Below, piece after piece: positions 8,701 to 21,474 of a stretch of 37,804 nt of DNA. The stretch spans positions 1 through 37,804 of IMG/VR virus record IMGVR_UViG_3300033995_001005. One strand, 5' to 3'. Numbering within the stretch: the stretch's first letter is position 1; each line of letters starts with the position of its first letter. Made by a program: the position numbers and the translations under genes. This DNA is from a virus. The notes beneath the pieces were generated by a model. That model saw only the letters and a program-made list of their open reading frames with translations, ran no database searches and had not been told where the DNA came from.

Positions 8701-9071
8701 GATTAGAATCTTATGAACATAATTACGCAGGTATTGATATTAGTGAATTTTGGGGTGATGGTAGTTCAGGGTTTTTTAGTAGTTCAAAATACTATTATTG
8801 TTCACCTAAACAAATACCCTATGTTTATTTTGATAGTGCTAATAATCATGTTAAAATGTTAATTGCTAGGTTTGAAGGTAAATCCAGTGCTTTTGGGGAA
8901 ACAACACCTGTTGATATAGCTAAATTCTATATTTTATACTTTAATGCTAAGAGTAATAATCAAAATGTTTATGATTCTATAAAATCAACTGATTCTGTAC
9001 GATTAAAAAATATTGAATCTGAGATAGGCGAATCTATTTCACTTTATAATGCGATTACTAATAAAAGTTAA
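2751..9071 (+). CDS. Giant baseplate hub-like protein (2106 aa)
   Basis: This is the largest gene in the window. The N-terminal region (about residues 130-250) has a beta-rich tail segment with ITQITIRQGLDFLPQINVKL, PYPMFSLTIKGYYGK and a long FVVDLVFYTYKY strand. Residues about 1640-1865 resemble the hub/gpD fold: after a conserved VVGFNVDIG and FHGFQVDQRG comes MMGNAMIQPTMYFNL, then GPYMITSVNHIISPGSFET, the typical end of tail-tip hub proteins. The last ~150 residues form a separate domain containing QGLESYEHNYAGID, suggestive of a lysozyme or glucosaminidase-like fold. The middle thousand residues are unrecognised and low in cysteine. It overlaps gp53 by 11 bases. I infer a tail-tip hub, possibly with a cell-wall-cleaving tail. 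T4 splits these jobs among gp27, gp5 and gp29. The hub call is moderate and the enzyme call tentative. Confidence 0.55.
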   Translation: MVDSGENILVEFDYNNISIIDPNKVIDSNGKVSERLVKQEDLVVYANLECKVIPRTKLAVGVANNDQIQTISVAAINFLNPGNKGFLDNSYTDELTGKDSTKGEGQNQVKLESVKNPNKSDDTYIRQTLKGTTDNGMLGITQITIRQGLDFLPQINVKLEDVKGRSLFEGGDNSPYAAFFNLPYPMFSLTIKGYYGKAVKLSLMLQNFTSRYDTYSGNFVVDLVFYTYKYTILSEITMGALLAVPHMYKSRVSVQNKVVTPSTGTDSKTTKTTDSVVERGFQKVKEMYSEYKSKGMISDDFPEISLMELQNRLENFVKNVLDSFTKQNLDPLTDLNEYSKILGEYDKDVFAMNGESWRSKYLDTDNFLVMDNPEKTKVYTFKKEYIPAKKKDEAINKLKEYITSYTEKLSNNKTLGILGKYKINNTEKSIQIPNSIKYEIFPKTLQAGDINLKETYRQRKKLDVEPSKQQLEDFQAELTKDSVLNSLVIKNDAGKQTPITNYFVFEGNGTFEFFIDKMGKDLKTYREQIENELTEALSELLQNKDNGIGFVPSIRNVLAVIFANGEAFLRLMDDVHTQAWSVRDDKDRKKAILTGVSSDNLTSGNNSTEPVYPWPQMIVETMTPDKEEQFIITYPGDRAVINQTKAYLPELWPEVEFVEEFIKGYVQRSENPLPSTPNSNELSDVKRISLSAIEFPVSNVVFGNKEEIKYMYEIYERIFLTSYYSKLSRCNNFISESNQISDIISEGESINIINSLSTDNPFITKKLVEYGINASNFEILLKHISNGGVGESWQNYIRGIFNTSYIKNIVNNSSFEFINSGILSDSSSQPLVSLSNEKALVDYISDSTTTNSFDFGDIYPFTDLTWCNSKLADGGTLIDAKSSFDTRKVLTYNLNKKVISNFLDTTNDDTKRPFTNFSYKNIQQPILDKPDLKTFYNDRDFTSQLLTEGNLNYINYSGLVTSYQTVSMFNTPYFVNSIQEGVQNFRNDSITPYVSSAYLFINSLPLSTLKEKYKTYENKSEKPLDYIFASLKKFGAIHKMPYAWILKFGSVYHRYKNYVENGVDIINTSWSDFKYVDNYDPTTNNPTKTYSLTINNSNIDIVLEKNSTLGLETSTLINTGFYPKLINDFNVFYQGFEIYSAYTSTDIQKGFSSGVTLNYVKDAIIDMGKGFDEKNLNRNLRVIPWSVAIDTFDGKFTYLLPSQGSLINQTKDECITSNNKLKYEISGNTAMYNGSTRLFWTAPNYGYFDNSKVVKPSPLQYLKQVFSGQSGQQNFSINGTSNDYTSIDEIFSVFEKNILDGFESEFLKFSKSMYDFEDNSSSTLSNISISEFETDSEKSFKNFQMLMISLMKTTKLVGTTPTDTIIKQQQEQLTTISNTLTKFINTDVVFKYGNPSNFDKKLFYSFSTYQISDPYTWEKYSFATPNSLPYSGGSITLSNSKATYPQQWKTLETYVGFSDVDKLMYSNNGSYITDFFIDLNIAFNVDNIKNLAPIIKIYTTQKLNDPTLNISKFTMLMDEYITSNETFKGKVINNLMPKLQTKLPKIVTSSQQTINSVLEGPATKVELWESFKAINDKWISGNDFKTKTLFEDIMLIDRASRDVGDKILVDVIKLKDYLATIKPTMPMLVFVQSILVDNNFVVMNLPSYVNFYNVQDAVKNPKPRAEGSLEFANTMFGTFLNVDYRNSSPKLVCFYGGKPSEQLDLKDNIDYRFRSDAFDLRRASDNPLVESQIGKKDWGMSNKVVGFNVDIGTQNQSIFHGFQVDQRGSTATAESLELLNQMANQSGNRKASTQNVSLFNLYKTRSYNCTVNMMGNAMIQPTMYFNLRYVPMFSGPYMITSVNHIISPGSFETIVEGVRQPIASLPKISAYIQSLKTTLLTTIVNKIKEDKVPKKSDSNVKKGDIISQRNEALDKGLDNDATVASAQQTCSASTKYNTYKAGTPNKTVINYKNIIQIINANTNDIKLRYIIFAIMYLQSSKTQGLESYEHNYAGIDISEFWGDGSSGFFSSSKYYYCSPKQIPYVYFDSANNHVKMLIARFEGKSSAFGETTPVDIAKFYILYFNAKSNNQNVYDSIKSTDSVRLKNIESEIGESISLYNAITNKS

Positions 9072-9102
9072 AAGATTAAATTTTTCACAATTAAACGATA
9101 TT

Positions 9103-9110
9103 TATAAATA
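9103..9110 (+). promoter_or_regulatory. T4-late-promoter-like TATAAATA
   Basis: The octamer TATAAATA, identical to the T4 late promoter core, lies 8 bases upstream of the ATG at 9118, in the 46-base gap after the hub-like gene. It overlaps TATTTAT (9099-9105), which recurs in other gaps of this window. AT-richness makes chance matches possible. With this spacing the transcript would start very near or at the start codon. Confidence 0.25.
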
Positions 9111-9117
9111 AAAGATT

Positions 9118-9342
9118 ATGGACACAAAATTAATATTAGACAACTATTTAGGTAAAAAAGCTAGAAGTACCGAAAAAGATTTGGGAAATGGTTCTAAACA
9201 AGTTTGTGATTTAGACACAGGTGATTGTTATACAATTAGAATGAAAGATGGTCTAATCGAAAGAGTAGATAATACAATGACAACAAATAAAAAAATTCAG
9301 GTTGAAACATTGACCGGTGTAAAACAATTATTAAACGGATAA
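9118..9342 (+). CDS. Hypothetical small protein (74 aa)
   Basis: I do not recognise this family. The 74-residue protein is soluble, with no signal or membrane segment. The central part has two cysteines eight residues apart in a Gly/Asp-rich turn (KQVCDLDTGDCYTIRMKDG), which looks like a small beta hairpin. The C-terminus (VETLTGVKQLLNG) is probably helical. It is the first gene after a short gap following the giant hub-like gene and ends 4 bases before the next gene, so the two are likely co-transcribed. Position suggests a small virion or assembly factor, but nothing in the sequence proves this. Confidence 0.6.
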   Translation: MDTKLILDNYLGKKARSTEKDLGNGSKQVCDLDTGDCYTIRMKDGLIERVDNTMTTNKKIQVETLTGVKQLLNG

Positions 9343-9346
9343 TAAA

Positions 9347-10006
9347 ATGAAAAAAATAGATAATCAAATATTAGAGGAATTGGCTAGATATAACTCAATT
9401 AATAATTATATCACTGAACAAGAGGCTGTTTTACCTCCACCACCAGGAACAGACCCAAATGCTCTTCCTCCGGTTGAAGACCCAAATGCTTTACCACCTA
9501 TTGACCCAAATATGCCACCGGCACCTGAAGCACCAGTTGAACCACAACCTGTTGATGTTGCTGCTGACCCTGATGTTGAAAAAGTGGGTGAAGAACAAAG
9601 TAGTACAAAAGAAATCGATATTACAGATTTAGTGAAATCTCAAAAAAATACTGAACAAAAACAAGAAGAGTATTTTAATAATTTATTCAGTCATTTAACA
9701 GATTTAGAAAGTAAACTTGGTGAAATGGATGGTATTATGAATAAATTAAATGACTTGGAAGCTAAAGTTGAAAAATACAGAGAAAAAACTCCACAAGAAA
9801 AATTAGAATTAAGAAGCCTAGACTCGGGTCCTTTTAATCAGAAATTAACAGATTTTTTTGTTGATAAAGAAGAAGAAATGGACAAATCGGGAAAAAATGA
9901 ATATATTTTAACTCAAGACGAGGTAGAAGACTATTCACCAAATGAAATTAAAAAAACATTTAGAAATTTTGAGGACGAAGCTACCTCATTTAAAGAGATT
10001 AGATAA
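9347..10006 (+). CDS. Proline-rich, coiled-coil protein (219 aa), probable virion or assembly protein
   Basis: No family is recognised. Residues 1-28 are a likely helix. Residues 29-68 are a Pro/Ala-rich linker with the unit DPNALPP occurring twice (residues 36-42 and 45-51). Residues 105-148 carry a heptad-like coiled coil (LTDLESKLGEMDGI, LNDLEAKVEKY). The C-terminal 70 residues are acidic and mixed charge. The protein is rich in Asp, Glu and Pro and has no cysteine. The layout of a flexible linker plus coiled coil fits an elongated oligomeric component such as a scaffold, core or neck/tail accessory protein. It is the last gene before a strong terminator, so it ends the left structural transcript. 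Confidence 0.6.
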   Translation: MKKIDNQILEELARYNSINNYITEQEAVLPPPPGTDPNALPPVEDPNALPPIDPNMPPAPEAPVEPQPVDVAADPDVEKVGEEQSSTKEIDITDLVKSQKNTEQKQEEYFNNLFSHLTDLESKLGEMDGIMNKLNDLEAKVEKYREKTPQEKLELRSLDSGPFNQKLTDFFVDKEEEMDKSGKNEYILTQDEVEDYSPNEIKKTFRNFEDEATSFKEIR

Positions 10007-10008
10007 TT

Positions 10009-10035
10009 AAAATGGTCTTCGGACCATTTTTTTTT
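10009..10035 (+). terminator. Rho-independent terminator with UUCG tetraloop
   Basis: A perfect 9-bp stem (AAAATGGTC paired with GACCATTTT) is closed by the extra-stable tetraloop TTCG and followed by a run of nine T residues that begins inside the stem. It lies 2 bases after the proline-rich gene and marks the left boundary of the DNA metabolism cassette. Confidence 0.93.
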
Positions 10036-10045
10036 ACAAAACAAT

Positions 10046-10074
10046 TTGACAAACCACTCGTAGACACTTATACT
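10046..10074 (+). promoter_or_regulatory. Near-consensus sigma70-type promoter for the replication cassette
   Basis: TTGACA at 10046-10051 and TATACT at 10069-10074 are separated by exactly 17 bases, an almost perfect housekeeping promoter in the Escherichia sense. The same stretch also gives a Bacteroidota-like TTTG (10045-10048) and TACTTTTA (10071-10078), close to TAnnTTTG but with a slightly long spacer of 22. It lies between the terminator at 10009-10035 and the gp32-like start, leaving a leader of roughly 20 bases. This implies early transcription of gp32 and downstream genes by the host polymerase. Confidence 0.7.
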
Positions 10075-10103
10075 TTTATAAACTTTAAAACATTTTAAAC
10101 ACT

Positions 10104-10967
10104 ATGGCGACAAACAACAATTCATTAGACGCAGTTTTGGCTCAATACGAGCAATCAAAACAAGGAGGTTCTTCTTCTACCTCAAAATTCACACAAGAAG
10201 AAAGAATGAAAAAATACTTCGCGGCAATCCTTCAAGATAAGGAGACTCAAGGGCAACGAAGATTAAGGATTTTACCAACAAAAGATGGTTCTTCACCATT
10301 TAAAGTTGTTTGGTATCACGAAATCCAAGTTGATGGAAAATTCCAAAAATTTTATGACCCGGGAAAAAACGATAATGAGCGTTCACCTTTAAATGAGGTT
10401 TACGAAGAATTACGTTCAACAGGTAGAGATTCTGATAAAGAATTAGCTAAACAATACTTATCTCGTAAATTTTACATTGTAAAAGTTATTGATAGAGATA
10501 ATGAGGATGATGGTGTTAAATTTTGGAGATTTAAAGACAACTACAAAAACGAAGGTATTTTAGATAAAATTATACCTATCTACAGAAACAAAGGTGATAT
10601 TGCTGACCCTGAAAAAGGTAGAGATATTATTTTGGAATTAACTAAAGCAAAAACACCAAAAGGAGCTTTTTACACTGTAATCCAAACTGTTATGTATGAC
10701 GACCCATCTGCAATTCATGAGAATAAAGCTATTGGTGATGAATGGGTTAATGATGAATTAACTTGGGAAGATGTTTATTCTAAAAAACCTGTTGAGTATT
10801 TAGAAGCTCTTGCAAGAGGAGAAAGTCCTAAATGGAGTACTGAAAAAGGTGGTTATGTATATGGAAACGCTGAAGATAGTGAGTCTTCATTTGGTGGTAG
10901 TGGTAAAACATCCGCACCAATTGACCCACAAGCTGGAGTTGAACCGGAAGACGATATGCCTTTTTAG
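10104..10967 (+). CDS. gp32: Single-stranded DNA-binding protein, gp32-like
   Basis: This 287-residue protein binds single-stranded DNA during replication, recombination and repair. The N-terminal tail (residues 1-30) is Gly/Ser-rich. An OB-fold-like core spans about 50-215, with RRLRILPTKDG, FKVVWYHEIQ, KFYIVKVIDRD, GVKFWRFKD and a long helix region, as in T4 gene 32 proteins. The C-terminus is flexible and acidic and ends EPEDDMPF, very close to the DDDIPF tip of bacterial SSB. T4 gp32 binds zinc through three cysteines and a histidine, but this protein has no cysteine at all, so the zinc finger is missing. It follows a strong promoter and precedes uvsX, a classical partner. T4 gp32 regulates its own translation; a structured element follows this gene rather than preceding it. 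Confidence 0.85.
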   Translation: MATNNNSLDAVLAQYEQSKQGGSSSTSKFTQEERMKKYFAAILQDKETQGQRRLRILPTKDGSSPFKVVWYHEIQVDGKFQKFYDPGKNDNERSPLNEVYEELRSTGRDSDKELAKQYLSRKFYIVKVIDRDNEDDGVKFWRFKDNYKNEGILDKIIPIYRNKGDIADPEKGRDIILELTKAKTPKGAFYTVIQTVMYDDPSAIHENKAIGDEWVNDELTWEDVYSKKPVEYLEALARGESPKWSTEKGGYVYGNAEDSESSFGGSGKTSAPIDPQAGVEPEDDMPF

Positions 10968-10989
10968 ACAATCAAAACTTATATTATTT

Positions 10990-11024
10990 AACATAGACAC
11001 GAACATAGACATCGTGTCTATGTT
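10990..11024 (+). promoter_or_regulatory. 13-bp perfect hairpin with repeated AACATAGACA units between gp32-like gene and uvsX
   Basis: AACATAGACACGA (10990-11002) pairs perfectly with TCGTGTCTATGTT (11012-11024) around a 9-base loop. The decamer AACATAGACA occurs directly at 10990 and 11002 and inverted at 11015-11024. A near copy (AACATAGATA) sits at 11053-11062, touching the uvsX start. No T run follows, so it is not a standard terminator. It may be an attenuator, a processing or stability element, or a protein-binding site. Confidence 0.55.
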
Positions 11025-11063
11025 ATCTAATAAAACTACTAAAAATTAAATTAACATAGATAT

Positions 11064-12062
11064 ATGGCAATTAAAAAACACGATTTTAAGTCCATTAAGG
11101 ACAAATTCTCAACATCGGCAAAATATAAGCCACAAAGTTTTTTTGACTTAGGTCCTGACTTTTTGGATGCTGTTGGATTACCTGGTCCGGCTATAGGACA
11201 CTTAAATATGTTCTTGGGTCATTCAGATACCGGAAAAACAACCGCATTGGTTAAAACAGCAGTTGATGCTCAGAAAAAAGGTATTTTACCGGTTTTTATT
11301 ATTACAGAACAGAAATGGTCGTTCGAACATGCCAAGTTAATGGGTTTTGAATGTGAAGAAGTTGTTGATGAAGAAACCGGAGAATTAGACTGGGATGGAT
11401 TCTTTATCTTTAACAATAACTTTGAGTATATTGAACAAATTACTGATTATATTAATTCATTACTTGATGCTCAAGAAAAGGGGGAATTAGATTATAGTTT
11501 ATGTATAATGTGGGATAGTGTGGGTAGTGTACCTTGTAAAATGACTTTTGATGGTAAGGGTGGGAAGCAACACACCGCCGGGGCATTATCTGATAAAATT
11601 GGGATGGGGATTAATCAAAGAATATCAGGTAGTAGAAGGTCAGATTCAAAATATGAAAATACTTTAATTATTGTCAACCAACCATGGGTGGAATTACCGG
11701 ATAATCCGTTTGGTCAACCCAAAATCATGGCAAAGGGTGGAAATGCTATTTGGTTAAACTCTTCTTTAGTTTTCTTATTTGGAAATCAAAAAGGTGCTGG
11801 AACAAATAAGATAACAGCTACTAAAGATAAAAGAAGTATAAAATTTGCAATTAGAAGTAAAATTTCTGTATTAAAAAACCATATAAATGGTCTTGGTTAT
11901 GAAGATGGTAAAATTATCGTAACACCTCACGGATTTTTGGCGGGTAAAGATTCTACGGAAGAAAAATCAAATATTGAAAAATACAAAAAAGAATATGCCG
12001 ACTATTGGAAAGAAATCATTGGGACTGATGGAGATTTTGATTTGAAAGAAGAAAAAGAATAA
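11064..12062 (+). CDS. uvsX: UvsX/RecA-like recombinase
   Basis: This 332-residue ATP-dependent strand-exchange protein belongs to the RecA superfamily, phage UvsX branch. Walker A is GHSDTGKT at residues 52-59. Walker B is LCIMWD at 146-151, followed by SVGS. A RecA-type L2-like region is near 165-195, and a strand ending in NQPW at 205-208 matches the sensor position. TEQKW near 81-85 lies in the segment that carries the catalytic glutamate. The length is slightly below T4 UvsX (about 390). It starts at ATG in TATATGGC context directly after the hairpin region and is followed 3 bases later by an HNH gene. With the gp32-like protein it forms the recombination-dependent replication core. No intein is present. 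Confidence 0.9.
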   Translation: MAIKKHDFKSIKDKFSTSAKYKPQSFFDLGPDFLDAVGLPGPAIGHLNMFLGHSDTGKTTALVKTAVDAQKKGILPVFIITEQKWSFEHAKLMGFECEEVVDEETGELDWDGFFIFNNNFEYIEQITDYINSLLDAQEKGELDYSLCIMWDSVGSVPCKMTFDGKGGKQHTAGALSDKIGMGINQRISGSRRSDSKYENTLIIVNQPWVELPDNPFGQPKIMAKGGNAIWLNSSLVFLFGNQKGAGTNKITATKDKRSIKFAIRSKISVLKNHINGLGYEDGKIIVTPHGFLAGKDSTEEKSNIEKYKKEYADYWKEIIGTDGDFDLKEEKE

Positions 12063-12065
12063 AAA

Positions 12066-12725
12066 ATGGAAACTAAAGTTTGTTCTAAATGTAAGGAAGA
12101 AAAAAAAGTTTGTGAATTCGGTAATTCAAAATCATCGAAAGATGGGTTATTATATTCTTGTAAAGAATGTAATAATAAAAGAAGTGTTGATTACCGTAAA
12201 AATAATCCTGAAAAAGTTTTAGAATTAACTAGAAATTGGACTAAAAAAAATCCTGAATGGGTTTATAATCGTCACAAGAAATGGAGAGAAGAAAATCCGG
12301 AAAAAGTTAAAGAAATAAAGGGAAATTGGTTAGATAAAAATCCGGAAAAAAGAAAAGAATACCGTGAAAATTATAAACCAAGAAAACAAGAACGAAGAAA
12401 AGAGAGAAGAGATAGTGACCCTGTTTTTAATTTAACCAATAGACTGAGATGTAGATTGTGGAAGTATTTGAAAATTCTTAACATAACCAAAACTAACAAA
12501 ACTTTTGATATTGTAGGTTGTTCCCCCCAATTTCTTAAAGAACATTTAGAAACCCAATTTATTGATGGTATGAGTTGGGATAACCGGAGTGAGTGGCACA
12601 TTGACCACATCATTCCATTATCATCGGCAAAAACAGAAGACGAACTTTATAAGTTATGTCATTATGAAAATCTCCAACCATTGTGGGCTGAAGATAATTT
12701 AAAAAAGAGTAACAAAATAGTATAG
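12066..12725 (+). CDS. Free-standing HNH endonuclease with zinc ribbon and 15-residue repeats
   Basis: This 219-residue protein is probably a homing-type nuclease. The N-terminus has a Cys4 zinc ribbon: CSKC at residues 6-9 and CKEC at 32-35. Residues 45-95 hold four copies of an N-P-E unit whose Asn-Pro pairs fall at 47, 62, 77 and 92, an exact 15-residue period, in a Lys/Arg-rich helical region likely to bind DNA. The C-terminus carries the HNH motif: EWHIDHIIPL (His178, Asp180, His181), then ENLQPLW (Asn202) and a final Asn-Lys-Ser-Asn. It is wedged between uvsX and the RNase H gene, whose start is GTG. Phage homing genes commonly sit beside conserved replication genes, so it is probably a mobile intruder. 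Its target is unknown. Confidence 0.88.
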   Translation: METKVCSKCKEEKKVCEFGNSKSSKDGLLYSCKECNNKRSVDYRKNNPEKVLELTRNWTKKNPEWVYNRHKKWREENPEKVKEIKGNWLDKNPEKRKEYRENYKPRKQERRKERRDSDPVFNLTNRLRCRLWKYLKILNITKTNKTFDIVGCSPQFLKEHLETQFIDGMSWDNRSEWHIDHIIPLSSAKTEDELYKLCHYENLQPLWAEDNLKKSNKIV

Positions 12726-12746
12726 TAACGAATACAAACAAAACCA

Positions 12747-13751
12747 GTGGTTAAAACCCTATTAGTGGATGGTAACAATTTAACAAAAATTGGATTCCAC
12801 GGAGTAAAAGATTATTATCATAACGGAAAACATATAGGCGCCCTATGGCACTTCATTAATACCGTTAGGCGTTTCATAGACGAACAAAACTTTGATAAGG
12901 TTGTTGTTATGTGGGATGGTGATGATAATTCATCTGCTCGAAAACTTATTTATCCCCAATATAAAGAAAATCGTAGAGACAGAGAAAACGAGTATAAGTT
13001 AGATTCTTTCACTGAGCAGAAAGAAAGAATCAAACAATACTTGGAGGACTGTTATATAAGACAAATCAACATCGATAATAACGAAGCGGATGATTTGATT
13101 GCTTATTACTGCCAAATCTCGGAAAACGAACAAAAGACCATCTATTCGGGGGATAAAGACCTTACCCAACTTATATCGGACAAGGTATCAGTGTTTTATC
13201 CGAGAACCAAACAAACTTATCATTTAGGATGTAAAATCAAATGTGATTTTTACGAATTTCCCCACGAAAACATTAAAACTTATAAAATATTGTCGGGGGA
13301 TAAATCGGACAACATTGATGGTATTTCAGGATTGGGAGAAAAAACTCTTATAAAATTTTTTCCTGAGCTACTTGAAAAACCGGTTTCAATTACCGATATT
13401 TTAGAAAAGGCTGATAATCTATTAAAGGAGAACAAAGGAAACAAGACATTACAAAATCTTTTGTCCGGTAAAACAAAAAGTGGAATTTATGGTGAAGAAT
13501 TTTTTGTTATTAACGAAAAAATCATAAATTTGTCCTCTCCATTAATAACTGATGATGCTAAAGAGCTTGTTGAGTTATATTATAAGGAAACTTTAGACCC
13601 TGATGGTAGGGGTTATAAGGGATTAATTAAAATGATGATGGAAGACGGGTTTTTTAAGTATCTACCAAAAGGTGATGATGCATGGGTGAATTTTGTTAGG
13701 CCCTTTATGAAATTAACAAGAAAAGAAAAACGAAATTATAAAAACAATTAA
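12747..13751 (+). CDS. rnh: RNase H / 5'-3' exonuclease, FEN superfamily (T4 Rnh-like)
   Basis: This 334-residue metal-dependent 5' nuclease removes RNA primers and flaps on the lagging strand. Acidic active-site residues are visible: Asp8 in LLVDGNN, Asp57 in MWDGDD, Glu113/Asp115/Asp116 in NNEADDLIAYY, Asp136/Asp138 in SGDKDLTQL and Asp185/Asp188 in SGDKSDNIDG. A helix-hairpin-helix-like DNA-binding element follows (GISGLGEKTLIKFF, 192-205). The arginine/lysine-rich arch (QYKENRRDRENEYK) fits substrate threading. The start is GTG at 12747; no in-frame ATG lies between it and the stop at 12726. Length is near T4 Rnh (305). The gene appears less AT-rich than its neighbours. Confidence 0.9.
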   Translation: MVKTLLVDGNNLTKIGFHGVKDYYHNGKHIGALWHFINTVRRFIDEQNFDKVVVMWDGDDNSSARKLIYPQYKENRRDRENEYKLDSFTEQKERIKQYLEDCYIRQINIDNNEADDLIAYYCQISENEQKTIYSGDKDLTQLISDKVSVFYPRTKQTYHLGCKIKCDFYEFPHENIKTYKILSGDKSDNIDGISGLGEKTLIKFFPELLEKPVSITDILEKADNLLKENKGNKTLQNLLSGKTKSGIYGEEFFVINEKIINLSSPLITDDAKELVELYYKETLDPDGRGYKGLIKMMMEDGFFKYLPKGDDAWVNFVRPFMKLTRKEKRNYKNN

Positions 13752-13759
13752 TTAAAATT

Positions 13760-14212
13760 ATGAAAGACCAAGAATCGGTAAAATTAGAATTCTTAATGAT
13801 GGTAAATGATAACATCATTGTACAGAGATTTTTTAACGTTAGAGAATTTAACGAAAAGGCGAAGTATTCGTTAGAGTTATACGAATTAATTCGTGACTTT
13901 AAGGATGATATCCAAACTCAATTATCATTGAAAACGGTGACGTATATGACGGACAATATGTACGAAATTATTAACAACCCGGCTATTTTAGAAACATCAT
14001 TTATTGATGGTCCGGAGTACTTTAATATTTTTATCAAACAAAATGATGTGACAATTTGTCATAGACAGGTGGACGCTAAAATATACCCTCCGAAGGTAAG
14101 ATACACTGTGGATGTACGCCCACACCTAAAAAATTTACTTATGTCATTGACTGACATTTTTTCTGACGAAAATTTAACATACGACTACATGGAAGTTAGT
14201 CTAAGTGTATAG
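13760..14212 (+). CDS. Hypothetical protein in replication cassette (150 aa)
   Basis: No family is recognised. The 150-residue soluble protein appears mixed alpha/beta: a beta strand (VKLEFLMMVND), a helix (NEKAKYSLELYELIRDF), a middle segment with TVTYMTDNMYEII, and a C-terminal basic/hydrophobic part (YPPKVRYTVDVRPHLKNLL). There is one cysteine and no membrane segment. It begins 9 bases after the RNase H gene, and a 29-base gap separates it from the helicase gene. That location makes a replication accessory role plausible, but the sequence does not show a helicase loader (T4 gp59-like) or any catalytic motif, and it is too short for gp59. Confidence 0.6.
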   Translation: MKDQESVKLEFLMMVNDNIIVQRFFNVREFNEKAKYSLELYELIRDFKDDIQTQLSLKTVTYMTDNMYEIINNPAILETSFIDGPEYFNIFIKQNDVTICHRQVDAKIYPPKVRYTVDVRPHLKNLLMSLTDIFSDENLTYDYMEVSLSV

Positions 14213-14241
14213 TATTTATCTAATACACTAAAAGAAAATAT

Positions 14242-15624
14242 ATGGCTTCAAACAAAAATTTTGATTACTTAGGTAGCACATTTCAGCTACAATTATTAAA
14301 CCAAATCGTCATCGATAAAGACTTCTCTAGGTCAATTATTGATGTGATTGAAACAAGTTATTTTGAGAATAAATATTTCAAAATCATCATTCAAATGATT
14401 AAGGAGTATTACTCAAAATACGAACATACACCAACATTTGATACTTTAGAACAAATCACCAAATCTGAGCTACAACAGGCTACAGCGTCAAAAATAGTTA
14501 TTGACACACTTAATAAAGTGAAAGAAGCCCCAACTGAAGGGGAAGAGTTTGTACAGGAAAAATCTATGAAATTCTGTAAACAACAAGAGTTGCAAAAAGT
14601 TATGGTTAAAGCTCAAAAAATCATCGATGGTGGTGAATTTGAGAATTACGACACTTTAGAACAATTGGTTAGTAAAGCCCTTCAAGTGGGTGAGTTAGAC
14701 AAGGGTACTGAAGATGTTTTTCACAACTTGGACGATGTTTTAAATGAAGATTATCGTCATCCGATACCAATGGGTATTCCGGGTATAGATAGACTCTTAA
14801 AAGGGGGTTTAGCTAAAGGAGAAATTGGGGTTATTTTGGCACCAACAGGTGTTGGGAAATCTACATTATTAACCAAAGTTGCTAATCACGCATTTAACTT
14901 GGGATACAATGTATTACAAATATTTTTCGAGGATAATCCAAAAATTATTCAAAGAAAACACATTACATTATGGACTAAAATTCATCCGGATGAATTATCC
15001 ACTAGAAAAGATGAGGTTATTCTTAAAGTAAATGAGGTTAAAGACTCGATGAGTAATAAACTTATCTTGAAAAAACTCCCATCTGACACAATGACAATGA
15101 TGCAAATTAAAAACCAAATTAGAAAAATGGTTTCCGAGGGAGTTAAAATTGATATGGTTTTATTAGATTATATTGATTGTGTTGTTCCTGATAGAAATTT
15201 AGGTGATGAATGGAAATCAGAAGGTTCTGTAATGAGAGCGTTTGAATCTATGTGTCACGAATTGGATATGGTTGGGTGGACAGCAACACAAGGTAATAGA
15301 AGTTCAATTTCATCAGATGTTGTAACTACTGACCAAATGGGTGGGTCTATCAAGAAAGCTCAGGTTGGACACGTAATTATTTCGGTGGCAAAATCACTAC
15401 AACAGAAAGAAATGAAACTAGCAACAATTGCGATTACTAAATCACGAATTGGTGATGATGGTGTTGTATTTGAAAATTGTAAGTTTGATAATGGTATGTT
15501 AGAGATTGATACAGAAAGTTCTGTAACCTTTTTAGGGTTGGAAGAACAAACGGAAGAAAGAAACAGACAACGAATTAAAGATTTGTTAGATAAGAGAAAA
15601 CAAAAAGAACAACAAAAAAATTAA
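14242..15624 (+). CDS. gp41: Replicative DNA helicase, DnaB/gp41-like
   Basis: This 460-residue hexameric 5'-3' helicase unwinds DNA at the replication fork. The N-terminal domain (about 1-150) is helical, as in DnaB/gp41. The RecA-like motor begins near 177 ([20 protein letters not shown]). Walker A is APTGVGKS at 200-207. FFEDNP near 228-233 matches the glutamate-containing H1a position, and Walker B is MVLLDYID at 305-312. ATQGNR is the glutamine/arginine-containing H3/H4-like segment, followed by a Gly-Gly-Ser loop (MGGSIKKA). The basic coiled C-terminus ([15 protein letters not shown]) may bind partners. Length matches T4 gp41 (475). The gap in front contains TATTTAT at 14213-14219. Confidence 0.9.
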
Positions 15625-15629
15625 ATAAA

Positions 15630-16577
15630 ATGGAAAAAATATTAAAACCAAATAATGACAGATTTGTCATATTCCCAATTGAACATGATGATATTTGGGA
15701 ATACTATAAACAACATCAAGCTGCGTTTTGGACGGCAGAAGAAGTAGATTTATCAAATGATATTAGAGATTGGGAAAATTTATCTGATAATGAAAGATAT
15801 TTCATTAAAAATGTATTGGCGTTTTTCGCAGCGTCAGATGGGATTGTGAATGAAAATTTGGCGGAAAACTTTTTAAAAGAAGTTCAGTATGCTGAAGCAA
15901 AGTTTTTCTACGGATTCCAAATTATGATGGAGAATATCCATTCATTAATGTATTCATTATTGATTGATACCTATGTGTCCGACCCTGATGAAAAAGATGA
16001 ATGTTTTCACGCTATTGATAGATTACCGGCTGTTCAGAAAAAGGCTAGTTGGGCGTTGAAATGGATAGAAAGTAGTTCTTTCCAAGAGAGATTAATTGCG
16101 TTTGCTGCGGTTGAAGGGATATTCTTTTCAGGGTCGTTCTGTTCTATTTTTTGGTTAAAATCAAGAGGTATTATGCAAGGATTATGTAATGCTAATACTC
16201 TTATTTTTAAAGATGAAAATTTACATTGTGATTTTGCTATTCATTTGATAAACAATCATATTGAGAGTAAACCAAGTGAAAAAAGAATTAAAGAAATATT
16301 ATTATCAGCTTTAGAGATTGAAAAAGAGTTTATTACTGAATCATTACCTGTATCTTTAATTGGTATGAATTCAAACCTAATGAAACAATACCTTGAATTT
16401 GTTACCGATGGTTTATTGGTTAAATTTGGTTGTAAAAAACATTTTAATGTAGAACAACCATTTAAATTTATGGAACAAATTGCTATTGAGACTAAAGGAA
16501 ACTTTTTTGAAAGTAGAACAATGGAATATCAAAAAGCTAAGTTAGGTGAATCATTAACATTTACCGAAGATTTCTAA
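15630..16577 (+). CDS. nrdB: Ribonucleotide reductase class I small subunit (NrdB)
   Basis: This 315-residue radical-generating R2 subunit works with NrdA to convert ribonucleoside diphosphates to deoxy forms. The di-metal ligands are all visible in family order: Asp70 (AASDGI), Glu101 and His104 (MENIH), Glu162 (AVEGIFFSG), Glu196 and His199 (KDENLHCDF). The radical tyrosine is Tyr108 (HSLMYSLL), so this should be a tyrosyl-radical enzyme of class Ia/eukaryote-like type. The C-terminus ends TFTEDF, like the R1-docking tail of other R2 proteins. It sits 5 bases after the helicase gene and 11 before nrdA, so the order is B then A, the reverse of the common bacterial order. Confidence 0.95.
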
Positions 16578-16588
16578 TTAAATAAAAT

Positions 16589-19006
16589 ATGATGTCATTA
16601 AAGATTAAAAAAAGAGGGGGAGAAGAGGTTTCCTTTAATCCCCAAAAAATATACAATAGAGTTAAACGAGCGGCTAAAGGTTTAAATGTTAATTCTGATG
16701 AGATATTCATTAAAGTAATAACCTCTGTACCAACAGAGGGTTTTATTACAACTAAAGAACTTGATAAACTAGTTTATGAGATTGCTGCGGCTTACACCGG
16801 TAGTCATCACGATTATTCTCGTTTAGCATCTTCTGTGGCGATTTCTTCTTACCATAAAGAGACTGATGAAAGTTTTTGTAATACAATGAGTGTATTACAC
16901 ACTGATGGTGTGATAAATGATAAATTAATGGAGACTATTGAAAAATATGGTTCAGAAAATATTGATTCTGTTATTAATCACGAGAATGATTACAATTTTG
17001 ACTATTTTGCTTGGAGGTCATTACAAGAAATGTATTTGTTAAAAACACCTCAAGGTAAAGTAATAGAAAGACCACAACATATGTATATGAGGGTGGCTTT
17101 ATGGGTGACAAAATCATTTGAAGAGGCTGTATCATATTACGAATCATTATCAAATCAGATAATATCACCAGCGACACCTATTATGATTAATGCGGGTACA
17201 AAAACACCTCAATTGGCGTCTTGTGTATTACATTATAACAATGGTGATTCTAGACAGGGATTGTTGGAAACATTAAACGACATTTCAACATATTCTTCAG
17301 ATGCCGCGGGAATTGGATTGTGTATGTCTAATATTCGTAGTAAAGAGAGTCGTATTAATTCTTCAGGTGGATTTGCGGGTGGATTGTTAAAATATCTTAA
17401 AATTGTTAATGAATCTCTTCGTTTCTTTAATCAACAAGGTAGAAGACCTGGAAGCGCTGCGATATATATAGAACCTTGGCATAAAGACATTATTGATTTA
17501 CTTGAAATTAAGAAAAACACTGGGTCCGAAGAATTAAGAGCTAAAGATTTATTCACATCAATATGGTTACCGGATAATTTTATGAATGCTGTTAAAAACA
17601 ATTCTGATTGGTATTTGTTTTGTCCTAATGACATTGTTAAGGCGGGTATTAAACCATTACAAGAATGTTATGGTGATGAATATGAAGATAACTATGGTAG
17701 AGCGGTTGAGTTAGGTCTCGGTAAAAAAGTAAAAGCTCAAAATATTTGGAATAAAATCATTGAATCTCAAGTTGAGACTGGTGTTCCTTATTTATGTTCT
17801 AAAGATAGTGCGAATAGAAAAACTAACCATCAAAATATTGGGGTGATTAAACAATCTAACCTATGTAATGAAATTTACCAATATACGGATGAGAGTACGA
17901 CAGCAATTTGTACCTTATCATCAATGGTATTAAAGAATTTTATTGTTAATGGTAAATTTGATTTTAATTGGTTGTATAGTGAAGTTAAAAAAGTGGTGAG
18001 AGCCCTTAACAAGGTTATTGACATTAATAGTTATTCTACTGAACAAGGTAGAAAAGGTGGGTTAGAACAAAGAGCGATAGCTATTGGAACACAAGGACTT
18101 GCGGATGTATTCTTCTTAATGGATTATATTTTCACATCTGAAGAATCAAAAAAGTTAAATAAAGATATATTTGAAACTATCTATTTTGCGGCGATTACTT
18201 CTAGTATGGAGTTATGTAAATCAGGTGAATATAAACCTTACCAATTTTTTGAAGGTTCTCCAATGTCCAAAAGTGTCTTCCAATTTGATATGTGGGGGTT
18301 AGATTATGAAGGTTTAGGAAAAATGTGGGATTGGGATTCACTTAAATTAGAAGTGTCTAAATATGGTGTTTGTAATTCGTTATTTACCGCTCAGATGCCT
18401 GTCGCATCTTCAGCTAAAATTACCGGTTCATTTGAAATGACAGAACCAGCTCATTCAGCATTATTTAATCGTAGAGTTGTTGGTGGTGAAATTTTAATAG
18501 TTAATAAATACTTAATCAACGATTTTGAGAAATTAGGTATTTGGGGAGAAGACTTAAAAAATGAAATTATTATGAACGAAGGCTCAATTCAAAATATTAA
18601 TTTTAATAACTATCTTGACCCTGAAGATAAAAATTATAAAAAGAAAGTTAAGAGAGTAGAACATTTAATTCCAAAGTATAAAACAATTTGGGAGATATCT
18701 CAAAGAGAATTAATTGATATGGCAGCTGATAGAGCACCGTTCATTGACCAATCACAATCAATGAATATCTATATGTCTGAACCAACATTATCAAAGATTT
18801 CATCGTCTCACTTCCATTCTTGGGGTAAAGGATTAAAGACTCTTTGTTATTATGTTAGAACAAAAGCGATATCAACCGGAGCTAAACATTTGGCGATGGA
18901 TATATCAAAAATACAACAACCAAAAATAACTGTTGAAAAACCAACAGTTGAATTAGTTAAAAAACCGGAGGATTCAGACTTTGAATGTTTTGGATGTGGT
19001 TCTTAA
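16589..19006 (+). CDS. nrdA: Ribonucleotide reductase class I large subunit (NrdA)
   Basis: This 805-residue catalytic R1 subunit has an N-terminal ATP-cone (about 1-90, LKIKKRGGEEVSFNPQKI), so dATP/ATP activity control is likely. The active site shows Cys212 (LASCVL), the NLCNE motif at 424-428 with Cys426 (radical thiyl) and Glu428, and Cys441 (AICTLSS), the partner of Cys212. The radical-transfer tyrosine pair is in LCYYVR near the C-terminus. The last residues, CFGCGS, carry the Cys800/Cys803 pair used for re-reduction by a thioredoxin or glutaredoxin. The full set indicates a functional enzyme with no intein. It starts with two tandem ATG codons; the first is given here. It ends the DNA metabolism cassette ahead of a terminator. 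Confidence 0.96.
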   Translation: MMSLKIKKRGGEEVSFNPQKIYNRVKRAAKGLNVNSDEIFIKVITSVPTEGFITTKELDKLVYEIAAAYTGSHHDYSRLASSVAISSYHKETDESFCNTMSVLHTDGVINDKLMETIEKYGSENIDSVINHENDYNFDYFAWRSLQEMYLLKTPQGKVIERPQHMYMRVALWVTKSFEEAVSYYESLSNQIISPATPIMINAGTKTPQLASCVLHYNNGDSRQGLLETLNDISTYSSDAAGIGLCMSNIRSKESRINSSGGFAGGLLKYLKIVNESLRFFNQQGRRPGSAAIYIEPWHKDIIDLLEIKKNTGSEELRAKDLFTSIWLPDNFMNAVKNNSDWYLFCPNDIVKAGIKPLQECYGDEYEDNYGRAVELGLGKKVKAQNIWNKIIESQVETGVPYLCSKDSANRKTNHQNIGVIKQSNLCNEIYQYTDESTTAICTLSSMVLKNFIVNGKFDFNWLYSEVKKVVRALNKVIDINSYSTEQGRKGGLEQRAIAIGTQGLADVFFLMDYIFTSEESKKLNKDIFETIYFAAITSSMELCKSGEYKPYQFFEGSPMSKSVFQFDMWGLDYEGLGKMWDWDSLKLEVSKYGVCNSLFTAQMPVASSAKITGSFEMTEPAHSALFNRRVVGGEILIVNKYLINDFEKLGIWGEDLKNEIIMNEGSIQNINFNNYLDPEDKNYKKKVKRVEHLIPKYKTIWEISQRELIDMAADRAPFIDQSQSMNIYMSEPTLSKISSSHFHSWGKGLKTLCYYVRTKAISTGAKHLAMDISKIQQPKITVEKPTVELVKKPEDSDFECFGCGS

Positions 19007-19025
19007 TTAAAATAAATTATGATAT

Positions 19026-19052
19026 AAATCACGACATATGTCGTGATTTTTT
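19026..19052 (+). terminator. Rho-independent terminator closing the DNA metabolism cassette
   Basis: AAATCACGACAT (19026-19037) is followed directly by its exact reverse complement ATGTCGTGATTT (19038-19049). This gives a 9-10 bp stem with a 4-6 base loop, followed by T residues to 19052. It lies 20 bases after nrdA and 48 before the gp25 start. Confidence 0.9.
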
Positions 19053-19099
19053 ATTTTGGGGTATTTATTAGAAATAATTGTGGCATTATATTTATAGTT

Positions 19100-19558
19100 A
19101 TGAGTGATGGTAAAACATATGGGATTAATTTTCCTTTTAGAGATTCGTATGATGGTAAGTATTTAGACCTTTCTGATTATAATGACCAAGAGATTAGAAG
19201 TAGTTTAGTTCATTTATTATTGACAAGAAAGGGAACTAGATATTATTTACCTGATTTTGGAACTAGATTATATGAGTTTATTTTTGAACCTTTAGATGGT
19301 CCAACATTTTCGGATATAGATGCTGAAATAAGGTCTTCAGTTGAAGATTACATACCTAATATCACAATAACCAATATTAGTATTACCGCTGCATCAGAAG
19401 GTGAGGAGGATAAAGGTTCTTATATTGATGGTAATGATGATAGAGTATATAGGGTTCCTGGTATAGGAACTAAAGAACATACCGCTAAAGTTAGAATTGA
19501 TTATAGACTTAACAATGATGTGTTTAATCAAAAAGATTTTGTAATTATTAATATTTAA
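19100..19558 (+). CDS. gp25: Baseplate wedge protein gp25
   Basis: This 152-residue protein is the conserved inner wedge component (P2 gpW / T4 gp25, GPW_gp25 family). The signature is the LTRKGTRYYLPDFGTRLYE segment at residues 41-59, then FIFEPLD. The usual basic-Gly-x-Arg, Pro-x-Phe-Gly and acidic-Pro features are all present. C-terminal beta strands (TAKVRIDYRLN) complete the fold. I chose the ATG at 19100, which gives MSDGKTYGIN. The frame extends upstream to a GTG at 19043, but that codon lies inside the terminator stem. gp25 nucleates the wedge and contacts the sheath start. It is followed 6 bases later by gp6, its structural partner. Confidence 0.9.
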   Translation: MSDGKTYGINFPFRDSYDGKYLDLSDYNDQEIRSSLVHLLLTRKGTRYYLPDFGTRLYEFIFEPLDGPTFSDIDAEIRSSVEDYIPNITITNISITAASEGEEDKGSYIDGNDDRVYRVPGIGTKEHTAKVRIDYRLNNDVFNQKDFVIINI

Positions 19559-19564
19559 TGTTAT

Positions 19565-21403
19565 ATGGCAAATAAGAAAATTTCATACACAACAAGAGAC
19601 TTCCAATCAATCAGAACGGAATTAATAAATTTTACAAAAACTTATTATCCGGATACTATTGAAAATTTTAACGATGCTTCCGTATTTTCGGTATTAATTG
19701 ATTTAAATGCTGCGGTAACAGATAACTTACAATTTAATATTGATAGAAGTATCCAAGAGACAGTATTACAATATGCTCAACAAAGGTCATCAATTTATAA
19801 TATTGCAAGAACTTATGGGTTAAAAGTTCCGGGTCAACGACCATCAGTTGCTTTAGTTGATTTCTCAATTACTGTTCCTGCATATGGGGATAAAGAAGAT
19901 TTAAGATATTGTGGTATATTAAGAAGAGGTTCACAAGTTATTGGTGCGGGACAAGTTTTTGAAACTGTGTACGATATTGATTTTTCATCACCATTAAATG
20001 CCGATGGGTACCCTAATAGATTAAAAATACCAAATTTTGATTCAAATAATAAATTATTGAACTATACAATAACTAAAAGAGAAACAATAGTTAATGGTAT
20101 TACAAAAGTATTTAAAAGAGTCGTAACATCAAATGATGTTAAACCATTTTTTGAGATGTTCTTACCTGAAAAAAATGTTTTGGGGGTAACAAGTGTTTTA
20201 TTAAAAGATGGTACTCAATACGCAAACATCCCGTCCGCTCAAGAATTTTTAGGATTAGACGATAGATGGTATGAAGTACAAGCGTTGGCTCAAGATAGAG
20301 TTTTTATAGAAGACCCAACTAAAGTGTCGGACCAACCGGGAATAAAAGTTGGTAAGTATATGTCAACTAATGATAAGTTCATAACAGAATATACACCAGA
20401 AGGTTTTTTTAAAATCACATTTGGTGGAGGTAGTCAATCTGCTGACGAACAATTAAGAGAGTTTGCTAGAAATGGGTACGAAATGAACTTAAATAAATAT
20501 TCCAATAATTTAGGGTTAGGTAGTATTCTTAAATCTAATAGTACAATTTTTATCCAATATAGAATTGGTGGTGGGACAGGTTCTAATTTAGGTGTTAATG
20601 TTATTACTCAAATTGGTAATGTTTCGTTTAGTGTTAATGGACCATCAGATTCTATTAATACTAGTGTTGTTAATTCGTTGAGATGTACGAATGTTACTGC
20701 AGCAATCGGAGGAGGTAATTACCCAACAACAGAAGAAGTTAGAAATTTAGTTACATATAATTTTGCTGCTCAAAATAGAGCGGTAACAGTAAATGATTAT
20801 GAATCATTAATTAGGTTAATGCCGTCACAATTCGGGGCTCCGGCAAAAGTCTCAATAACTGAAGAAAATAATAAGATAAAAATCCAAATGTTGTCTTATG
20901 ATGAAAATGGTAGTCTTACAGAAATTGTTTCAGATACTTTAAAAAATAATGTTGCAAACTATTTGTCAAACTATAGAATGATTAATGATTATATATCAAT
21001 TGAAGTTGCCAATGTAATTGATTTAGGGGTTAATGTTGATATTGTATTAGATAATACACAAAATCAGGGAGCAATTATTTCTAAAGTGATAAACATTGTA
21101 TCGGATTACTTCGCACCAACTAATAGACAAATGGGTGAAAATGTTAATGTTTCAGAATTAAGAAGATTAATTCAAAGTGAGAATGGGGTAATATCGTTGT
21201 CAGATATACTTTTCTTTAATAAAGTGGGAGGACAATATTCTTCATCTCAAACATCTCAAAGGTATTCTGATTCAGAAACAAAACAAATTGAATTGGTTGA
21301 TGACACCATTTTTGCGGAACCAAAACAAACTTATCAGGTTAGATATCCTAGTAAAGATATTAACATTAGAGTTAAAAATCTTAAAACCGTTAATTTTTCG
21401 TAG
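19565..21403 (+). CDS. gp6: Baseplate wedge protein gp6 (gpJ-like)
   Basis: This 612-residue protein is the dimer-forming core wedge subunit. The N-terminus (KISYTTRDFQSIRTELINF, then DASVFSVLIDLNAAVTDNLQF) is the typical start of T4 gp6 and P2 gpJ family proteins. Residues about 300-430 (GFFKITFGGG, YRIGGGTGSNLG, YNFAAQNRAVTVNDYESLI) match the central baseplate-J region, and the C-terminal third (VDLGVNVDIVLD-like strand, then VSELRRLIQSENGVISL) is also typical. Length is near T4 gp6 (660). It lies directly after gp25, the canonical order. The ring of gp6 dimers joins the six wedges. Confidence 0.88.
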   Translation: MANKKISYTTRDFQSIRTELINFTKTYYPDTIENFNDASVFSVLIDLNAAVTDNLQFNIDRSIQETVLQYAQQRSSIYNIARTYGLKVPGQRPSVALVDFSITVPAYGDKEDLRYCGILRRGSQVIGAGQVFETVYDIDFSSPLNADGYPNRLKIPNFDSNNKLLNYTITKRETIVNGITKVFKRVVTSNDVKPFFEMFLPEKNVLGVTSVLLKDGTQYANIPSAQEFLGLDDRWYEVQALAQDRVFIEDPTKVSDQPGIKVGKYMSTNDKFITEYTPEGFFKITFGGGSQSADEQLREFARNGYEMNLNKYSNNLGLGSILKSNSTIFIQYRIGGGTGSNLGVNVITQIGNVSFSVNGPSDSINTSVVNSLRCTNVTAAIGGGNYPTTEEVRNLVTYNFAAQNRAVTVNDYESLIRLMPSQFGAPAKVSITEENNKIKIQMLSYDENGSLTEIVSDTLKNNVANYLSNYRMINDYISIEVANVIDLGVNVDIVLDNTQNQGAIISKVINIVSDYFAPTNRQMGENVNVSELRRLIQSENGVISLSDILFFNKVGGQYSSSQTSQRYSDSETKQIELVDDTIFAEPKQTYQVRYPSKDINIRVKNLKTVNFS

Positions 21404-21438
21404 AGATTTATTTTAAAATATTATGGACTATCTTTTGA

Positions 21439-21458
21439 AAATAGTATATAAACTATTT
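21439..21458 (+). promoter_or_regulatory. Small AT-rich hairpin and TATTTAT motif upstream of the 1915-residue gene
   Basis: AAATAGT (21439-21445) pairs with ACTATTT (21452-21458) around a 6-base loop, 17 bases before the start at 21475. TATTTAT lies at 21454-21460. The stem is weak and purely AT-rich apart from one G-C pair, and no clear T run follows. It may be a promoter or regulatory region in the 71-base gap after gp6. Confidence 0.25.
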
Positions 21459-21474
21459 ATTAAAAAAGAATATT

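Follow-up and report, generated by a model that had tools for sequence, protein, structure and literature searches.

The window, that is, the whole stretch of DNA analysed, is a virus record of 37,804 bases (IMG/VR IMGVR_UViG_3300033995_001005), in which all 22 genes called by script lie on the + strand. A gene for a gp32-like single-strand DNA-binding protein is followed, after an intergenic gap, by a gene for a uvsX-like recombinase, and downstream of uvsX are endonuclease VII-like, exonuclease, DnaB helicase and nrdB/nrdA genes. The features of the region are as follows.

10009-10030, + strand: intrinsic terminator (hairpin, then T-run), directly 5' of gp32
10045-10075, + strand: promoter-like TTTGACA-N17-TATACTT of gp32, kept in many relatives with varied upstream sequence
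10104-10967, + strand: gp32-like single-strand DNA-binding protein gene (287 aa; phrog_1192, E 8.4e-10)
10982-10986, + strand: lower helix, 5' side, 5 bp, paired with 11028-11032
10989-11002, + strand: upper helix, 5' arm, 14 bp, paired with 11012-11025; contains direct copy 1 (10990-10999)
11003-11011, + strand: 9-nt loop ACATAGACA, covering the larger part of direct copy 2 (11002-11011)
11012-11025, + strand: upper helix, 3' arm; contains the inverted copy (11015-11024)
11028-11032, + strand: lower helix, 3' side
11033-11052, + strand: A-rich spacer, where many relatives have a terminator T-run
11053-11062, + strand: start-proximal near copy AACATAGATA; WTRGACA kept here in 23 of 45 rows of the window's clade
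11064-12062, + strand: uvsX-like recombinase gene (332 aa; phrog_97, E 5.9e-13)
19026-19049, + strand: terminator-like site 3' of nrdA, where the transcription unit possibly ends

The long pattern of the promoter-like site of gp32 had a single match in the window. Its spacer is partly kept in many relatives (GACAC before TTATACTT), the sequence upstream being variable, which suggests that an extra factor or an extended element may be involved. In a scan of positions 9000-22000 the next terminator-like sites on the + strand were at 16722-16739, inside nrdA, and at 19026-19049, and gp32, uvsX, the replication genes and the nrd genes are presumed to form one transcription unit. The endonuclease VII-like gene directly 3' of uvsX (12066-12725, phrog_1035), the product of which scored 20.4 bits with HNH family PF01844, slightly below the cut-off, is possibly a mobile endonuclease.

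Two direct copies of the decamer AACATAGACA (10990-10999 and 11002-11011, + strand) and one inverted copy (11015-11024, - strand) were confirmed in the gp32-uvsX gap, as was a perfect 13-bp stem formed by 10990-11002 and 11012-11024. A near copy had been described as touching the start codon of uvsX; it exists with one mismatch and ends one base short of the ATG at 11064. The hairpin itself was likewise real but larger than the sequence-only reading had it, starting at 10982 and comprising 19 bp in all. The predicted fold of 10982-11032 consists of a 14-bp helix (the pair 10989/11025 being added), a 2x2 internal loop and a 5-bp lower helix, with an energy of -21.2 kcal/mol (z -7.4; 0 of 200 shuffles equally stable; nested folds only were computed). 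The stable stem-loop of an intrinsic terminator is thus present, while the U-rich tract directly 3' is absent: positions 11033-11042, 3' of the stem, read AAACTACTAA, and the claimed lack of a T run held. A search of 9900-11200 against Rfam identified no family, the best score being 25.9 bits against a gathering score of 100, among chance-like miRNA matches.

Copy 1 and the inverted copy pair with an ensemble probability of 0.999, and copy 2 and the start-proximal copy have practically no pairing with the inverted copy in the ensemble. Over the whole window the decamer is not in excess (six matches compared with 4.6 expected; at least six in 34 of 100 shuffles), and the other two matches with one mismatch lie about 20 kb away from the gap. 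The unusual feature of the decamer is its clustering within one 100-nt gap.

The slot between gp32 and uvsX in relatives

Relatives were taken as UvsX and gp32 matches in IMG/VR confirmed by tblastn, with the best 80 listed in each search. In a first set, a gp32-uvsX gap was found in 156 of 161 records (99 distinct gaps among the matches listed); four of the remaining records had no gp32 match and one had no uvsX match. This set includes the window twice, once under the identifier L081, and some contigs are entered under two locus identifiers. A further set gave a gap in 78 of 80 records, the best 80 listed (63 distinct). Combined, the matches listed contained 160 distinct gaps, of which 121 were shorter than 150 nt with uvsX directly after gp32; in the longer gaps there is an extra gene. 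The gp32 query also matched 48 Synechococcus phage records; the junction comparison covers the IMG/VR relatives and one immuto record.

All 121 direct gaps listed contain a hairpin of -7.6 kcal/mol or better, as judged by energy without shuffles (114 at -8 kcal/mol or better and seven from -7.6 to -7.9), and in the short gaps of the first set the hairpin had z values of -2.4 to -9.8 among the matches listed. When the relatives were checked for unrelated sequence without a stem, the sequence was often unrelated and the stem was nearly always present. Exceptions are the relatives with an inserted gene, such as L083, and Flavobacterium phage immuto, to which the named phage records obtained with the UvsX query belong (four records, 41 % identity); in the one immuto record read, that of a cultured relative, the gp32-uvsX gap is 2 nt long and the element is absent. 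In L083, L141 and L146 the gap is approximately 600 nt and contains an inserted gene in place of the hairpin. Because the hairpin is replaced in these three and the immuto record read is without the element, it is not essential in general.

An inserted gene was also seen in this gap in L042, L075 and L304. An 'HNH' or endonuclease label for the inserted genes of the L083 type was rejected, since the L083 gene, the one gene searched, had no Pfam match at E 0.01. By eye, the start codon of the L083-type gene lies in a possible pairing of AACATTTTCC with GGAAAATGTT. Gaps of approximately 280-350 nt (L006, L012, L021, L028 and others) have a small extra gene between gp32 and uvsX; in these the hairpin is still found next to gp32, and uvsX is not preceded by the start-proximal motif. 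In L082 (3884-3925) an ATG opens a 13-codon frame across the hairpin, MTWAPGLLGAQLV, which was discarded as a feature of the clade, the ATG being seen by eye in three rows only (L082, L084 and L086).

A run of at least four T near the end of the stem was present in 62 of the 121 direct gaps listed and absent in 59, which comprise 45 of the window's clade and 14 outside it. The distance from the stem to the uvsX ATG in the relatives with a T-run had a median of 18 nt (9-39) among the matches listed. In 43 of the 45 gaps of the window's clade there were at most two T in the 8 nt after the stem. The stem measured 18-22 bp, again in 43 of 45, when a 6-nt internal loop was bridged, and a stricter count bridging 5 nt gave mostly 12-15 bp. 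In a quick gp32 tree of 99 rows, built without bootstrap or an inferred root and with rows labelled by simple patterns, the window was placed in a 48-row branch (99*) consisting of the 45 T-less rows and three with an inserted gene. Neighbouring branches with a similar hairpin carry the T-run, which suggests that the stem was present before the T-run was lost. The T-run has probably been weakened more than once, since T-less or weak-T hairpins also occur outside the window's branch, for example in L290 and its kin.

A 21-bp hairpin ending AAAGACAAT lies directly before an ATG in L174 (4760-4835, corresponding to 264760-264835 of the 272-kb record); it is T-less and has a GACA start-proximal motif, another such case in a relative. 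A T-less intergenic hairpin, ATTATGACCCATTGTAATAGTGGGTCATAAT, is common to L165 (16134-16191, 272-kb record) and L176 (19596-19652, 99-kb record), and further T-less intergenic hairpins were found in both large records in a rough survey.

Covariation and sharing of hairpin alleles

Compensatory changes, which the sequence-only reading had proposed to look for in relatives, were found, with two-sided changes at 10 of 18 stem pairs. In the 45 distinct gaps of the clade, 96.4 % of the cells of the 18-pair structure were paired. Two-sided cells numbered 47 compared with 10.8 after shuffling (0 of 500 shuffles), a comparison that overstates independence, as the rows are related, and that is offset only partly by the slid controls and the count of G-U and A-C cells. 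When the structure was slid by 1 to 3 columns, pairing fell to 27-45 %. Of the ten two-sided pairs, nine belong to the upper helix. Pairing in the lower helix was 93 %, with two-sided change in one of seven pairs, and three window-type rows break the lower-helix register of the clade and re-form it four columns away, as read by eye in the alignment.

The 32 distinct stems contained 500 Watson-Crick, 58 G-U, 2 A-C and 16 other cells. A G-U pair becomes A-C when the opposite strand is read, so an imbalance of this kind is expected under selection as sense RNA, and the hairpin is, by this pattern of change, selected as sense-strand RNA. An antisense terminator was considered, there being at least six A in the 8 nt before the stem in 32 of 45 gaps, but was rejected as the imbalance is that of the sense strand. 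A covariance model gave 71.5-103 bits on the + strand and at most 24.1 bits on the - strand. The window, itself a training row, scored 71.5 bits; the 272-kb record scored 103 bits and the 99-kb record 93.4 bits, both with sequences identical to training rows. In these three records the gp32-uvsX hairpin was the sole strong match, the next reaching 24.1 bits. The best score in 41 sources outside the training set was 43.3 bits (L017, E 1.8e-5), and the terminators of other branches were mostly weak or unmatched.

Viral contigs were also scanned for the sequence pattern without conditioning on genes, some contigs overlapping with the UvsX/gp32 relative set. The exact 33-nt allele of the window was found in 10 contigs, all 10 with gp32 before it and uvsX after it; the 9-nt loop is identical in 10 IMG/VR contigs. 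A degenerate pattern of the clade was found in 52 contigs, in 51 of which it is flanked within 120 nt by gp32 on one side and uvsX on the other. The remaining contig, L226, likewise has gp32 and uvsX, with an insert of approximately 150-200 nt before uvsX. A frame for a 41-residue hydrophobic peptide (MKNVIIKYKKPIIIT...) was seen between hairpin and uvsX in L226 (approximately 890-1126), and on the far side of the insert the terminal part of the element (ACTTGTCTAAA ... TTAACWTRGAYATAT) occurs again, which gives the impression of a partial duplication of the element around the insert.

The exact 33-mer of the window, loop included, is present in L181, L183 and L185, the gp32 of which is 50-57 % identical (L185 partial) and the UvsX 70-71 % identical to those of the window, with the DNA of the region about 69 % alike. 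These three are identical over 1,300 bases and therefore represent one phage and one independent case. Relatives of this phage have other hairpins, among the matches listed. L082, the nearest row to the window in the tree (gp32 99 %), has a different hairpin allele, and L189, with proteins 100 % identical to those of the window, has the window's allele. The CATGTATGGTA hairpins of L288 and L290 are a second case of allele sharing: they differ at 1 of 36 letters, and the respective UvsX proteins are 68.5 and 88 % identical to that of the window. At a loose similarity cut the 121 distinct hairpins listed formed 29 clusters, a count that depends on the cut, includes extra-gene gaps and leaves out six gaps labelled endonuclease insertions. 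The distribution of alleles points to replacement of the hairpin as a unit between phages, an alternative for the shared alleles being tight sequence constraint on the loop.

Direct repeats and the motif at the uvsX start

The decamers had been read as repeated binding sites for a protein, which the relatives did not bear out: the mean longest direct repeat per hairpin in the 29 clusters was 4.55 nt compared with 4.38 nt expected from a structure-preserving null. Two exceptions stood out, the window allele, with L010 as its representative (p 0.007), and that of L018 (p 0.017), values uncorrected for 29 tests.

The start-proximal ACATAGACA is invariant in six rows of neighbouring branches, and the exact start-proximal 9-mer was found in 18 of 121 short distinct gaps among the matches listed. 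With the ATGGC context and up to two mismatches, ACATAGACA had nine matches in 10 large records, five at uvsX starts, two in the 5' arm of the hairpin and two elsewhere without an ATG. The core [AT]RGACA occurred at most 14 nt from the start in 5 of 294, 2 of 66 and 1 of 22 called genes, with uvsX included in the first two; as it is also near the starts of other called genes, the core alone is not unique. Compared with the outer 5' arm, the start-proximal copy was identical at 8.36 of 11 positions against 8.16 when shuffled (69 of 2000 shuffles), and for the inner arm the figure was 1236 of 2000 shuffles. The idea that this copy changes in concert with the stem was dropped, the signal being weak and confounded by descent.

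The motif may be a translation-initiation context. Bacteroidetes are described in PMC6847099 as naturally without Shine-Dalgarno sequences, and a Bacteroidota host was inferred for the window solely from the immuto relatives.

Possible functions and known systems

The sequence-only reading had proposed a regulatory element, either a protein-binding site or an element of RNA stability or processing. The selected RNA structure fits the latter part of that proposal, its position being one from which the levels of gp32 and uvsX could be made to differ, and the binding-site part, with the decamers as repeated sites, was not upheld. The reading we favour, in which belief and doubt are about evenly balanced, is that the hairpin is an intercistronic RNA element that would derive from an attenuating terminator and would now act as a 3'-end stabiliser or processing site keeping gp32 above uvsX. 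It would lie at the 3' end of gp32 inside the presumed gp32-uvsX-replication-nrd transcription unit. In the relatives with a T-run, about half of those sampled, the slot would be an intrinsic terminator acting as a leaky attenuator, leaky because uvsX begins a median of 18 nt after the stem and little room is left for a promoter; uvsX is probably transcribed there by read-through, unless gp32 itself contains a promoter. In the window's clade the T-run would have been lost and replaced by the A-rich spacer, the two-storey stem of approximately 18-22 bp being kept, and RNA polymerase most likely now reads through. We infer a shift from stopping polymerase to acting on the RNA from the absence of the T-run, the A-rich spacer and the retained stem. 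The stem would block 3' decay of the gp32 message, perhaps after a cut of the RNase III type, and gp32 would accumulate above uvsX as a result of the protected message. In T4, the ratio of single-strand binding protein to UvsX recombinase matters for phage recombination and replication.

Several observations stand against this reading. A stem acting purely as a stabiliser would not need a loop that is exactly identical at 70 % UvsX identity, in three near relatives the hairpin has given way to an inserted gene, and the immuto record read is without the element. The lower helix, with its register broken in window-type rows, has little true covariation, the stem length depends on bridging the 6-nt internal loop, and 14 of the 59 T-less gaps listed fall outside the window's clade. 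Within one phage group, this slot is occupied by plain terminators in some members and, in others, by a U-less structured RNA that compensatory change has maintained, and these natural alleles could be used to study how terminators turn into stability or processing elements. No mention of the element was seen in open-licence PMC literature on T4, RNase III and Flavobacterium translation, and it may have been described elsewhere.

That the hairpin is still a transcription attenuator, which pauses or partly terminates RNA polymerase without a U-run, appears unlikely. It occupies the same slot and gene pair as the hairpin-plus-T terminators of the relatives, but 43 of 45 members of the clade have at most two T in the 8 nt after the stem, and the same genomes have T-run terminators elsewhere (in the 272-kb record 36 T-rich compared with 25 other hairpin gaps, a rough count, since the 25 include the gp32-uvsX hairpin itself and some whose fold contains a T-run). 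A translational operator of uvsX, where a protein, perhaps gp32, would bind the structure and spread over the A/U-rich tract and the start codon, is rather improbable. The layout resembles the T4 operator, in which a structure is followed by a less structured UUAAA/UAAA tract reaching the AUG (PMC535899, PMC3014915), and the loop is identical across divergent phages. The uvsX leader has three TAAA and two TTAA; 140 intergenic leaders taken from a relative average 1.05 and 0.71, yet at least three TAAA were found in 12 of those 140, and the count discriminates little because three of eight window leaders have three TAAA, uvsX and gp32 being expected among them. Against an operator are also the bases of the inner arm, which vary freely when the pair is kept, the lack of general enrichment of direct repeats, and the start-proximal motif, kept in just 23 of 45 rows. 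The exchange of alleles gave rise to a further proposal, in our view quite improbable: the slot would receive ready-made hairpin alleles swapped between phages, the U-less ones being read by an allele-specific trans factor, a host nuclease or a phage RNA-binding protein, that would set the ratio of single-strand binding protein to recombinase. Hairpin exchange would then retune recombination for a host.

A decaying terminator relic with no present role would agree with the absent T-run and the inserted genes that replace the hairpin in three relatives, and is made very unlikely by the two-sided changes that keep the stem at 10 of 18 pairs. The several copies of a short motif within 100 bp, at a single place in the window, recall a DNA element composed of inverted and direct repeats, whether an operator, a set of iterons or an origin; the 58 to 2 ratio of G-U to A-C cells in distinct stems is not predicted for palindromes acting at the DNA level, and such an element is highly unlikely. 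A conformational switch, in which the 3' arm would alternate between two partners, the 5' arm and the start-proximal copy, the latter pairing hiding the uvsX start, was largely refuted and is regarded as extremely unlikely. In the window a pairing of 9-10 nt is possible between the 3' arm and the start-proximal copy, and the covariation score of the first such pairing was reached by 4 of 500 shuffles, a figure that relatedness alone can give, but pairing across relatives was at shuffle level (68.6 % compared with 68.2 %, and 83.4 % compared with 83.3 %) and the ensemble probability in the window was about 2e-8.

The double-stranded stem of a T7-type RNase III site is about two helical turns long, a length to which the 19 bp of the window and, with the internal loop bridged, the 18-22 bp of 43 of the 45 clade members correspond. 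T7 R1.1, which PMC6121014 describes as a 60-nt model substrate of RNase III that is located between genes 1.0 and 1.1 and has an asymmetric internal loop, is likewise a structured part of a phage transcript that sits between genes and contains an internal loop. The element of the window differs from it in phage and host group and in its two-part stem of about 19 bp. An intrinsic terminator inside a transcription unit, in the manner of an attenuator, is represented by the weak terminator in T4 mobE (PMC2988022). The likeness is that of a hairpin able to divide the expression of neighbouring genes, with T-run versions at the same slot in relatives, whereas the window's clade has no T-run, a longer two-storey stem and an A-rich tail. 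The gene 32 operator of T4 and RB69, a structured RNA followed by an A/U-rich tract of the UUAAA type up to the AUG (PMC535899), has a layout that the window resembles, with TAAA and TTAA copies between hairpin and AUG in numbers that discriminate little, and gp32 is concerned in both. Unlike that operator, which is nucleated by an RNA pseudoknot, the window's element lies before uvsX rather than gp32 and appears, in the nested folds computed, as a plain hairpin.
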